From NCBI GenBank assembly GCA_913063835.1, contig CAJXZV010000011.1, forward strand, positions 1 to 37,537: a DNA stretch of 37,537 bases. Reading direction: 5' to 3'. The position numbers and the translations under genes were made by a program. Shown here piece after piece: positions 14,996-29,441 of this stretch. Each line of letters starts with the position of its first letter. Positions within the stretch are counted from its first letter, which is position 1. This DNA is from an uncultured Eubacteriales bacterium. Its GTDB lineage: Bacteria > Bacillota > Sulfobacillia > UBA995 > UBA9673. A model generated the notes under the pieces. That model was given only the letters and a program-made list of their open reading frames with translations, made no database searches and was not told where the DNA came from.

Positions 14996-15631
14996 TCAGC
15001 CTGCGGCCGGACGGCAGCCGCGGCCATGATGAGCCCTCAGGCTCCGCCGGCGGCCGCAACGAGCGGAAGGGTCCTCGCACACCTGGTGCAGAGTGAAGGC
15101 CATCAGCAACACGTCATCGGGAAGGGGCGGGTCCGCGTAGCGCCGGTCGTGGCGCACCCGGAGGATGCCCGCCGGACGGAACCCGCAGCTCCTGAAACAG
15201 CGGATGGCCCGGCGGTTGCTCAGGAGGACCTTGACGTAGACGAGGTCGAGGTCGAAGAGGGCCCGCACGCGCTCGAGGTAGGCCCGCACGGCCTCCCGTC
15301 CGAGCCCGTGCCCGCGGTCCCCGGGGCGGCCGATGACCACGCGGAGTTCGGCCGAGCGCGCCGCCCGCGAGACCCCCGAGAGCCCGACGAGTCCGACGAA
15401 GCGGCCGCCGACCTCTATGGCCTGCAGGTGCCGCATGTCCCCTCGGGCGAGGTGGCTCGGGGGTGCTCCGAAGGCCTCCACGAGGTCGGGGTCGGCGTCC
15501 CACCGGCAGACCTCGACGAGGTCGTCCGGACGCGGTCGGCGCAGGACCACGCGCCGGACGGGGGCGTGCGGCGGCGGAATGAAGGGGATGCGGGCGGAAA
15601 GCGTGGGGTCTTCGGGGCGGGTCACCGACAC
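14996..15631 (-). CDS. GNAT family N-acetyltransferase
   Basis: Acetyl-CoA-dependent N-acetyltransferase of the RimJ/RimL-like class. In 211 residues: VVLRRPRPDDLVEVCRW at the fold's start, the acetyl-CoA loop RPGDRGHGLGREAVRAYL (the R/Q-x-x-G-x-G/A motif is GHGLG), and NRRAIRCFRSCGF, the typical C-terminal helix. The acceptor is unknown. The start is GTG 15631, with GGAGGA about 11 bases upstream. The C-terminal 25 residues are Arg/Cys-rich and look like open-frame extension in GC-rich DNA. It is divergent from the DMT transporter gene. Confidence 0.83.
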   Translation of the reverse strand: MSVTRPEDPTLSARIPFIPPPHAPVRRVVLRRPRPDDLVEVCRWDADPDLVEAFGAPPSHLARGDMRHLQAIEVGGRFVGLVGLSGVSRAARSAELRVVIGRPGDRGHGLGREAVRAYLERVRALFDLDLVYVKVLLSNRRAIRCFRSCGFRPAGILRVRHDRRYADPPLPDDVLLMAFTLHQVCEDPSARCGRRRSLRAHHGRGCRPAAG

Positions 15632-15924
15632 TGAGGAGCCGTCCTCCCTCCGGTTGCCGGTCTGTCCGGAGCTTTAGACGGCCCGGGAACGGAACCTCCG
15701 GCCCCGGTCTCCGGACGGGACCGAAACCTCTGCCACGGTTGGCTATCTCTCAGTGCTCGGTCGGCTGTGCCTTCGCCGCGGGTCCGGGGCGCCGTCATCC
15801 GTCAGCCGCGCGCGGCGTCCTCCCCCCCTCGGTTCGACCGCGTCCTACCCCGCTGGTCCGACGTCCGCCTCCCCGCGGAAGGGAAAAAGCGTGCCAGCCA
15901 GAAACCACGACATCAGGACGGGAA
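15632..15924. other. Divergent intergenic region, no clear element
   Basis: About 290 bases between the divergent GNAT and DMT genes. It is GC-rich and should hold both promoters, but I could not find a convincing -35/-10 pair on either strand. A longer open frame runs through it on the plus strand without recognisable similarity. Confidence 0.5.
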
Positions 15925-16983
15925 GTGAGCCCTCTGGACCGCCTCAACCCACAACCCGCCGGCCGCCGGCGGCTCCTCGCCGACGGGGCCCTCCTCCTGG
16001 TGTCGCTCCTTTGGGGAAGCACCTTCGTCATCGTCAAGCAGGCGGTGGCGGAGTTCCCGACGATGACCTTCCTCGCCCTCCGCTTCACCCTGGCCGCGCT
16101 GTGCCTGGCGGCCGTCTTCTGGCGCGACGTCAGGGCGAACTGGCGGCACCTGGCTGCTCCCGGTCTCTTGGTGGGGGCCTGCCTGTGGGGAGGCTACATC
16201 TTCCAGACGTTCGGCCTGCGCCTTACGCAGGCCTCACGGGCCGGTTTCATCACCGGCCTCTCCGTCGTCCTTGTGCCCGTGCTGTCCTCGGTGCTCTTCC
16301 GGCAGAGGCCCTCCCGACAGGCGGTGGGCGGGACGGCCCTCGCCCTCCTCGGGATGGGACTGCTCTTCCTGGCCCCGCCTCCCGGCGGGACAGGGGCCTC
16401 GGGCGAGGGCGTCCTCCTGCCGCCGACCACCACGGGCGACCTTCTCGTCCTGGCCTGCGCCCTCTTCTTCGCCCTGCACATCGTGACCCTCGGGCGCTTC
16501 TCGGCCGCCGGCGCCCGCTCCTTCGGGCAGACCGGAGCCCTGGCGACCTTCCAGGTGGCCGCGGCCGCCGTCGGCTACGCGGGCGTCTGCCTCGCGTCCT
16601 GTCTCCTGACGGGGCCGGACGCCGTCCTTCCCCCGGCCCCTCTGAGCCGCCTGCCGACCGGCGCCATCATCCTCACCGGCCTCCTGGGCACGGCCGCCGC
16701 CTTCCTCGTCCAGACAACAGCCCAGAGGTACACGCCTCCGACGCACACGGCCCTCATCCTGGCCACCGAACCGGTGTTCGCCGCACTTTTCGGCTGGCTG
16801 GTGCTGGGGGAGCGGCTCGGGCTGTGGGCACAACTGGGCTGTCTCGCCATCCTGGTGGGGATGATCGTGGCCGAGCTGCCGGCGGCGGCCGCCCGGACGA
16901 CGACAGGCCGACAGGAGGAGGCGGGCGCGAGCGTGGGGCCGTCTAGGCCGGAGTCCCGGGACGCGTCACCGGGAGCTCCCTGA
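15925..16983 (+). CDS. DMT superfamily transporter (EamA family)
   Basis: Inner-membrane transporter of the drug/metabolite family, probably exporting small metabolites such as amino acids; substrate unknown. In 352 residues there are about ten hydrophobic segments in two EamA repeats. The first begins [18 protein letters not shown] and includes RFTLAAL; the second ends with [20 protein letters not shown], a hallmark of the family. GTG 15925 was chosen because AGGACGGGAA lies just upstream and the first membrane segment follows; the frame is open to 15739 but that segment is Arg/Pro-rich. The end overlaps the end of lon by 41 bases, tail to tail. Confidence 0.88.
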
Positions 16984-27174: not shown

Positions 27175-27251
27175 TGGTCGGGGCGCCGGGATTTGAACCC
27201 GGGACCTCCTGCTCCCAAAGCAGGCGCGCTGCCAAACTGCGCTACGCCCCG
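27175..27251 (-). tRNA. tRNA-Pro (anticodon TGG)
   Basis: Acceptor CGGGGCG with CGCCCCG, anticodon loop TTTGGGA, T-arm CCGGG-TTCAAAT-CCCGG, encoded ACCA end. Its first ten bases overlap the 3' end of the HD gene. It has its own promoter at 27302-27330. Confidence 0.97.
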
Positions 27252-27943
27252 CCCGTGTCTGGAGTGTCGCCGGGCACGTCGAGCCGAGGCCCGGCGAGCC
27301 CAGTATAAAGCGCCCGCGCGGACCGGTCAACGCCGGCGGCCTCCGCCCCTCTGGCCCCCGCGCCGGCCGAGAGGACCTCGACCGCCAGGACCGAGGCCAG
27401 GTGACGCCCGAGTTCCTCGGGTGTGACACCGCACGCGCGGGCGACCTCGGCCTCGATCTGCCGGAGGTGTGGCTCAGAACGCTCGATGACGTCCGCCGCC
27501 TCCGGATGGCGGCGTCTCAGACCGTCGATTCTTTTCGACAGACCGACGAAGCGGTCTTCGACAAGCTTGTCCGAAAGAACGACGACCTTCTCCTCCCAGG
27601 TCGCCGGGTAGAACCGGTCGCTCGAGAGCGAATCGAGCCCGTGGACCATGACCGGCCGCGTGACCTTCCCGGCGTAGCCCCGCTGACGGAGCCACTCCGC
27701 GGACACCCAGGCGTGGGCGCAGACGCCCGGCGGCGGACCTCCGGCCCGACCCGGAAGCTCCCGACCGACGCCGGCGCTCTTCCCGACATCGTGGAGGAGG
27801 CCCGCCGCCGCGGCCGCCGCCGGATCCACGTCCTGCCCGTTCTCAGCAAGGAGCAGGGCCGCCTCGCGCGCGACCCTCCCGACGGCCACGAGATGGGAAA
27901 GAGGCCTCCGGAGACGCCGGCTTCGGACAGGTCGGCCAGACAC
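27242..27943 (-). CDS. HD-superfamily hydrolase, apparently lacking its N-terminus through a frameshift
   Basis: Predicted metal-dependent phosphohydrolase. Seen in 233 residues: HLVAVGRVAREAALLLAENG with the first HD histidine, LLHDVGKSAG (the HD pair), CAHAWVSAEWL, and WEEKVVVLSDKLVEDRFVGLSKRIDGLRRR, matching a small HD family known as predicted hydrolases. The first 13 or so residues in this frame (SGRPVRSRRLRR) do not resemble the family. The matching N-terminal helix, VPGHARCLADLSEAGVSGGLF, is encoded immediately upstream in the rdgB frame, one base out of phase. The stop TAG at 27242-27244 lies inside tRNA-Pro. Substrate unknown. Confidence 0.8.
   Translation of the reverse strand: MSGRPVRSRRLRRPLSHLVAVGRVAREAALLLAENGQDVDPAAAAAAGLLHDVGKSAGVGRELPGRAGGPPPGVCAHAWVSAEWLRQRGYAGKVTRPVMVHGLDSLSSDRFYPATWEEKVVVLSDKLVEDRFVGLSKRIDGLRRRHPEAADVIERSEPHLRQIEAEVARACGVTPEELGRHLASVLAVEVLSAGAGARGAEAAGVDRSARALYTGLAGPRLDVPGDTPDTGGA
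27302..27330 (-). promoter_or_regulatory. Promoter of tRNA-Pro, inside the HD gene
   Basis: -35 TTGACC at 27325-27330, 17-base spacer, -10 TATACT at 27302-27307. Both elements lie in the coding sequence of the HD protein, close to its end (codons for the LYTGLAG segment). Confidence 0.85.
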
Positions 27944-28620
27944 CGCGCGTGGCCCGGCACCAGCCCGCCGTCGGACCCACCCGCGGTGAAGTCCCGGTCC
28001 CCGAACACCTCGAAAAGGTATCCTCTGAGAGCCCGCAGAGCCCTCGCCCGGTGGCTCACACGGCTCTTCTCCTCGCGGGAGACCTCAGCGAAGGACCGGC
28101 CCAGGTCGCGCGACAGGAAGACCGGGTCGTAGCCGAACCCCCCGTCCCCCCGGGGTTCGGTGAGGATGACCCCTTCGGTGAGCCCCTCGGAGACGAAGAG
28201 GGGGCCGCCAGGGGCCTTGAGGGCCGCGGCGGCGCGGAACCGGGCCGTCCGCCGAGCATCAGGGACTCCTGCGAGCCTCTCGAGCAGAAGGCGGATATTC
28301 TCCTCCGTACCCCCGCCGCTGAAGCGGGCCGAGCGGACCCCGGGCGCTCCTGACAGGGCGTCGACCTCCAGCCCGGAGTCCTCGCCGAGGCTGGGGAGGC
28401 CGAAACGCCGGGCCGCCCAGAGGGCCTTGGTGACGGCGTTCCCGGCGAAGGTTTCCTTGTCCTCGCTGAGCCCCTCGGCGTCGCCGGGCTGGAGGACACG
28501 TACGGTGAGGCCGAGGCGCGAGGTCGCGGGTGCCAGGAGGGGCCCGGCCTCCCGGACCTTGCCGGGGTTCGTCGTGGCCAGCAGGAGGAATTGCGGGGAG
28601 GCGCTCCCTGTGCCGTCCAC
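27517..28620 (-). CDS. rdgB: RdgB/HAM1 non-canonical purine NTP pyrophosphatase with C-terminal open-frame tail
   Basis: Cleaves XTP, ITP and dITP to monophosphates to keep them out of nucleic acids. The RdgB domain is residues about 10-205: LLLATTNPGKVREA at the nucleotide pocket, GLPSLGEDSGLEVDALSGAPGVRSARFSG (catalytic Asp), and GDGGFGYDPVFLSRD followed by SHRARALRAL. GTG 28620 has AGGG eight bases upstream and lies just past the rph stop. There is no stop after the domain; the frame passes without break into a helix that belongs to the HD protein (residues about 219-241) and then, after a phase change at about 27898, into non-homologous Arg/Ser-rich sequence ending at 27517. The tail is probably not real protein, or a fusion has been broken. 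Confidence 0.9.
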   Translation of the reverse strand: MDGTGSASPQFLLLATTNPGKVREAGPLLAPATSRLGLTVRVLQPGDAEGLSEDKETFAGNAVTKALWAARRFGLPSLGEDSGLEVDALSGAPGVRSARFSGGGTEENIRLLLERLAGVPDARRTARFRAAAALKAPGGPLFVSEGLTEGVILTEPRGDGGFGYDPVFLSRDLGRSFAEVSREEKSRVSHRARALRALRGYLFEVFGDRDFTAGGSDGGLVPGHARCLADLSEAGVSGGLFPISWPSGGSRARRPCSLLRTGRTWIRRRPRRRASSTMSGRAPASVGSFRVGPEVRRRASAPTPGCPRSGSVSGATPGRSRGRSWSTGSIRSRATGSTRRPGRRRSSFFRTSLSKTASSVCRKESTV

Positions 28621-28630
28621 GGCTCCGACC

Positions 28631-29392
28631 CTACCCGCGGCCTGAGTCCGGCCCTTGAGAGTCGATGAGCCCGGCCTCGGGCCCCAGGACCTCACGCTGG
28701 ACGGCGACGAGTCTGGCACAGCCGTCGCGGGCGAGTTCGACCATCCGGACGAGTTCGCTCTCGGTGAAGCTCCCCCGCTCCGCCGTCCCCTGTATCTCGA
28801 CGATCCGGCCGCCGCCGGTCATGAAGACGTTGAGGTCGACGCCGGCCTCGCTGTCCTCGGCGAAGCAGAGGTCCAAGACCGGCCGGCCCCGGACGATGCC
28901 GACCGAGACGCCGGCGACGAAGTCCGTGAGGGGCCAGGAGCCGATCTGCCCCGCCTCCTTGAGTTTCAGGCACGCGTCGAAGAGGGCGACGAAGGCCCCC
29001 GTCACTGAAGCCGTTCGTGTCCCGCCGTCGGCCTGGATGACGTCGCAGTCGAGGACGATGGTCCGCTCGCCGAGCGCGTCGAGGTCCACGACCCCCCTCA
29101 GGGTGCGTCCGATGAGGCGCTGGATCTCGAGGGCCCGGCCGGAAGAGCGGCCCGTGCTGATGTCGCGGGGACGGCGCTCCGGGGTCGCCCGCGGCAGCAT
29201 GGCGTACTCGGCCGTCACCCACCCCCGCCCGGAGCCCTTGAGGAAGGGAGGGACCCTGTCCTCGACCGTCGCCGTCGTCAGGACCCATGTGTCCCCGACC
29301 TCGATGAGTACGGAACCTTCCGCGTACCGGGTGTAGCCTCGGGTGATGGTCACCGGGCGGAGGTCGGAAGGTTCCCGACCGTCTATCCTCAA
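28631..29392 (-). CDS. rph: Ribonuclease PH
   Basis: Phosphorolytic 3' exoribonuclease that trims tRNA 3' ends. Seen: [21 protein letters not shown] at the start, [60 protein letters not shown], and [32 protein letters not shown], which are the full set of RNase PH blocks. The length of about 253 residues is normal. TTG 29392 gives the usual MRIDGR start with AGGGGG seven bases upstream; GTG 29395 is three bases earlier. It precedes rdgB in the common murI-rph-rdgB order. Confidence 0.97.
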
Positions 29393-29441
29393 CACGCCAC
29401 CCCCTGCGAATGCCGCGGCGCCCCGAACCCGGGAGCCGCCG

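Follow-up and report, generated by a model that had tools for sequence, protein, structure and literature searches.

Organization of the locus

The window analyzed here is the whole 37,537-nucleotide stretch of contig CAJXZV010000011.1 (assembly GCA_913063835.1; positions 1 to 37,537), from an uncultured bacterium of the Bacillota. On its minus strand, rph (29395-28631) is followed by rdgB, which initiates at a GTG codon at 28620, by an HD domain and then by a cluster of seven tRNA genes. The features of this region, all on the minus strand, are as follows.

28631..29395, minus strand: rph (RNase PH), directly upstream of rdgB; an open reading frame whose similarity to RNase PH was judged by eye
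28012..28620, minus strand: RdgB/Ham1 (XTP/dITP diphosphatase) domain, from the GTG start at 28620; Pfam Ham1p_like, 6.8e-52
27901..28011, minus strand: linker with the N-terminal portion of HD, in the rdgB frame; PG[HY]xxC motif common to three of three fused relatives
27893..27900, minus strand: site of the -1 frame break, TTTCCCAT; from the homology bracket and a maximum-likelihood codon switch
27326..27898, minus strand: HD phosphohydrolase domain, shifted by one base; Pfam HD, 1e-5, and alignment
27517..27897, minus strand: out-of-phase tail of the rdgB frame past the break, with its stop at 27519-27517; no family match
27242..27325, minus strand: C-terminal overrun of the HD frame, with its stop codon TAG at 27244-27242, inside the tRNA-Pro gene
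27175..27251, minus strand: tRNA-Pro(TGG), found by ARAGORN; first of the downstream seven-tRNA cluster

Position and size of the frame break

As the original prediction had it, the rdgB frame stays open beyond its own domain, with no stop codon from GTG 28620, past RdgB, to 27519-27517. It runs through LVPGHARCLADLSEAGVSGGLF to the TTT codon at 27900-27898 and is arginine-rich thereafter; a Pfam search of the rdgB-frame sequence past this codon gave no match. The HD frame, read from the TCC codon at 27898-27896, begins S-H-L-V-A-V-G-R-V-A-R-E and remains open to 27242. The shift between the two is -1, a deficit of one base with respect to an uninterrupted frame, and the break is flanked by the Ham1p_like match (6.8e-52) on one side and the HD match (1e-5) on the other.

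Homology limits the break to eight bases, between a conserved Gly-Leu that ends at 27901 and a conserved His encoded by CAT at 27895-27893. Independently of homology, codon statistics placed the switch from the rdgB frame to the HD frame at 27888-27900; a codon-usage model trained on three neighboring genes had its best switch at 27891-27900, favoring the rdgB frame before it and the HD frame after it. Frame reading, homology bracket and codon usage thus agree with the earlier placement of the phase change at about 27898. In the fused relatives described below, the PG[HY]xxC ... GL segment that precedes the switch in the window and the H..A..R..RE segment that follows it make up one unbroken conserved block, which the window fits without a gap after a one-base change of frame; hence a single base is missing, inside TTTCCCAT. 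The N-terminal helix of the HD domain had been proposed to be read in the rdgB frame, and accordingly these relatives conserve both the PG[HY]xxC motif and the residues that run up to the first His. We consider it about 85% probable that the locus is an RdgB-HD fusion gene with a one-base break.

At the other end of the HD frame, its stretch at 27242-27331 on the minus strand outruns both the homology and the coding signal, which end at about 27323-27331. A TGA lies out of phase with the HD frame at 27329-27327, so that a further frame error near the HD 3′ end is possible.

The fusion in related genomes

Among 60 relatives searched, close HD matches (43-47% identity) came from three genomes of the window organism's family, each representing its own genus, and in every case the HD domain shares an open frame with RdgB, in the uninterrupted order RdgB, linker and HD. 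These are SURF_36 (QZJP01000018.1), Tomsk_70_12_70_12 (DYFB01000055.1, labeled Symbiobacterium sp.) and ERR2868533_bin.32 (CALMHV010000178.1), and rph again lies upstream of the fused gene in all three (loci L003-L005). The window HD protein alone, used as a query of the genome contigs, returned no matches; an alignment of the relatives, used in the same way, recovered them. All three other family genomes examined align to the window through the break with no gap, and the idea of a fusion interrupted by a single base, together with the suggestion that related genomes might hold the fused protein, is therefore borne out by three genera of the same family that encode it in one frame. The opposite outcome, in which relatives carry separate rdgB and HD genes in the same frame arrangement or lack the N-terminal helix, was also looked for: no such separate genes were seen in the relatives, and the helix is present. 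The RdgB domain of the window is 61-70% identical to those of the fused relatives, and its HD domain 43-48%, compared with 45-53% for HD among the fused relatives themselves. The window HD is thus about as divergent as the relatives are from one another, and so was still under constraint until recently.

Outside the family, RdgB lacks HD in the four order-mates, and across 154 genomes of the class and 399 of the phylum no RdgB-HD protein turned up among the matches inspected; the HD subfamily is represented there by stand-alone proteins and by combinations with different partners. From these sequence comparisons, we regard the RdgB-HD fusion as real and as a family-level trait. No description of the architecture was found in the literature, and as far as these searches of genomes and literature show, the fusion is a new combination of known domains; the break itself is ordinary.

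The two halves of the protein

The RdgB half scores 176.5 bits against PF01725 (gathering cut-off 22.5), covering profile positions 1-184 of 186, and 144 bits (2.9e-52) against the NCBIfam XTP/dITP diphosphatase model TIGR00042, whose curated cut-off is 145.35. Known RdgB/Ham1 proteins (ITPase, PF01725) share with it the full-length domain, the fold of solved RdgB structures and the rph-rdgB gene order, but the window protein adds a C-terminal HD domain that is absent in the four order-mates examined. By family, the RdgB half would be expected to cut ITP-, XTP- and dITP-type nucleotides to a nucleoside monophosphate (NMP) and pyrophosphate (PPi).

The HD half scores 26.2 bits against PF01966 (gathering score 22), and its counterparts in the three fused relatives score 24.0, 20.7 (under the cut-off) and 34.6 bits. 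Candidate metal ligands are all in place: H in SHLVAV, HD in LLHDVGK, H in AHAW, H in VHGLDS and D in SDKLV. In the alignment, the H, the HD and the D are invariant across the window and the three relatives, along with two more conserved His. The best-scoring models, above those of other HD families, are TIGR00295 and the HD tail of the DVU_1551-family NTP transferases (NF045665). The window HD domain aligns to both, but at 35 bits against a curated cut-off of 172.35 for the former and at 43 bits, far under the cut-off of 315, for the latter, and it differs from the NTP transferases in being joined to RdgB rather than to a MobA-like domain. The YqeK Ap4A hydrolase model (TIGR00488) gave 12.9 bits (E 0.075) against a cut-off of 70.15.

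In the predicted structure of the intact fusion from Tomsk_70_12_70_12 (L026), the greater part of the HD half has a pLDDT near 90, with lower values for RdgB (mean 73); a model of HD only has a pLDDT of 83. A fold search with the fused model matched its N-terminal half to solved RdgB and Ham1 structures and gave no significant HD match, and a search with the HD-only model gave weak matches to the HD domains of PgpH and YqeK (best E 8e-3, TM about 0.5). The HD profile had one marginal match only among PDB sequences. PgpH, a c-di-AMP phosphodiesterase, and YqeK, a symmetrical Ap4A hydrolase, are the best solved-structure fold matches and share the HD metal motif; however, these matches to the window-type HD are weak (E about 1e-2, TM about 0.5) and the domain is not a member of either group. 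These results support the fold assignment without pointing to a substrate.

Origin of the break

Sequencing or assembly error, decay and recoding had all been offered as causes. The slippery-site, hairpin and HD-conservation evidence counts against recoding and long-standing decay, and error or recent mutation remains. Long-standing decay is unlikely because motifs and codon bias are both preserved in the HD frame, which has changed at a normal rate. Over recoding, we prefer error or recent mutation given the lack of an in-register slippery heptamer and of an unusual hairpin, and given a second frame change elsewhere in the same assembly. Codon signal, scanned over 437 kb of the assembly, revealed seven frame switches, the RdgB-HD break included. 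Among the six others, which fall in 400 kb elsewhere in the assembly, only that in a conserved AlkZ-like DNA glycosylase gene (L086, contig C13 of the assembly, 15542-16854, plus strand) is confirmed by a single Pfam domain that extends across the switch: the frame changes in mid-domain, with profile positions 1-163 followed by 167-328 in the next frame, which suggests another indel or a pseudogene. One other switch (on L080) is simply the junction of two different genes, encoding an FMN reductase and a histone deacetylase-like protein, three of the six have no family match, and the last also lies on L080. At least one further break of this kind is thus present in the assembly, which fits a background of errors but does not prove one.

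A real and recent frameshift mutation, by which RdgB would be made with a junk tail and HD would be lost, is one of the two causes within our best explanation, and we rate it as a serious possibility that falls well short of even odds. The RdgB domain sits entirely upstream of the break, which is compatible with such a loss, and the AlkZ-like frame change could likewise be real decay. Against this, the HD half still shows its motifs and codon bias, its frame is open over more than 200 codons and its divergence is accelerated slightly at most, so the mutation would have to be very recent; furthermore, about 20 other open reading frames checked in the window have plausible full domains.

It is highly improbable that two separate genes lie here, HD having a translation start of its own and overlapping rdgB. 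There is a GTG in the HD frame at 27943, but no clear ribosome-binding site accompanies it, no rdgB stop lies near the junction for a coupled restart, and the overlap codes in the rdgB frame rather than the HD frame under the codon-usage model; in addition, the two domains are fused in all three family relatives examined. We reject a separate HD gene on the open-reading-frame layout and the codon usage of the overlap. Programmed -1 ribosomal frameshifting that yields both RdgB alone and RdgB-HD is rejected as more improbable still: although the -1 shift falls beside a TTTCCC run with GGAGG just upstream and each frame looks coding on its own side, the sole heptamer of the form X-XXY-YYZ, TTTCCCA, does not sit in register with the rdgB frame, the hairpin downstream (MFE -33.0) gains no stability over shuffled sequence (-32.1 +/- 3.6), the rdgB frame continues 127 codons past the break with no nearby stop, and the relatives encode the fusion in one frame so that the shift is not conserved.

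Phosphohydrolases next to RdgB

The place that HD takes after rdgB in this family is occupied by a different enzyme in its neighbors. In the four order-mates (G004-G007), a calcineurin-like phosphoesterase (Metallophos_2) directly follows rdgB, sharing its contig and strand, and the same holds for a calcineurin-like phosphoesterase in six class-mates (G012, G013, G016, G018, G019 and G020). In a further class-mate (G009), RdgB is itself fused to a Metallophos_2 phosphoesterase (L095, 991-2229, plus strand), a parallel RdgB-phosphohydrolase fusion. These phosphoesterases, of the YfcE/YsnB type (PF12850), resemble the HD domain in being phosphohydrolases placed directly after RdgB, but they are metalloenzymes of a fold unrelated to HD. 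Elsewhere in the window's assembly, SURF_36 and ERR2868533_bin.32, other contigs give weak Metallophos matches, so loss of the phosphoesterase may be incomplete.

The same HD subfamily has other partners as well. It is fused to a MobA-like NTP transferase in L029 and occurs in apparent NUDIX fusions with modest scores (L041 and L042; in L048, NUDIX falls below the Pfam gathering score). Two stand-alone proteins of the subfamily (L035 and L037, the same as L006 and L009) adjoin a gene that, by eye, resembles YmdB-type phosphodiesterases.

Proposed function and significance

The family-level gene comprises RdgB, a non-canonical purine NTP pyrophosphatase, a short conserved linker and a metal-dependent phosphohydrolase of the HD superfamily; the window copy lacks one base at 27893-27900, through error or recent mutation, with the -1 shift just before the first metal-binding His. 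The architecture, the break and the conservation of the catalytic motifs are demonstrated, and the RdgB chemistry is expected from its family. In the intact fusion, RdgB would release PPi from (d)ITP/XTP-type nucleotides and leave the monophosphate, and HD, whose substrate is proposed from context, would then dephosphorylate the nucleotide product. We give this two-step chemistry slightly less than an even chance. The occurrence of two unlike phosphohydrolases in one place, beside an NMP-producing enzyme, favors action on the products of RdgB; NMP, as originally suggested, is the natural candidate substrate of HD, with PPi or another nucleotide also possible. Equally tentative is the wider picture, in which RdgB-HD would be a two-step nucleotide sanitation enzyme limited to one uncultured Bacillota family, where HD may have replaced the phosphoesterase found after rdgB in neighboring lineages and become fused to RdgB.

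The break is of interest chiefly as a warning, as gene callers would report an RdgB bearing a junk tail and, separately, a truncated HD protein. The action of RdgB is generally considered to end with the monophosphate, and for most bacteria no enzyme is known to have been assigned to the removal of this product. The HD fusion in this family, together with the unrelated phosphoesterase at the same position in its neighbors, suggests that an activity for the second step recurs as a partner of RdgB, and the phosphohydrolases that adjoin RdgB provide named candidates for it.
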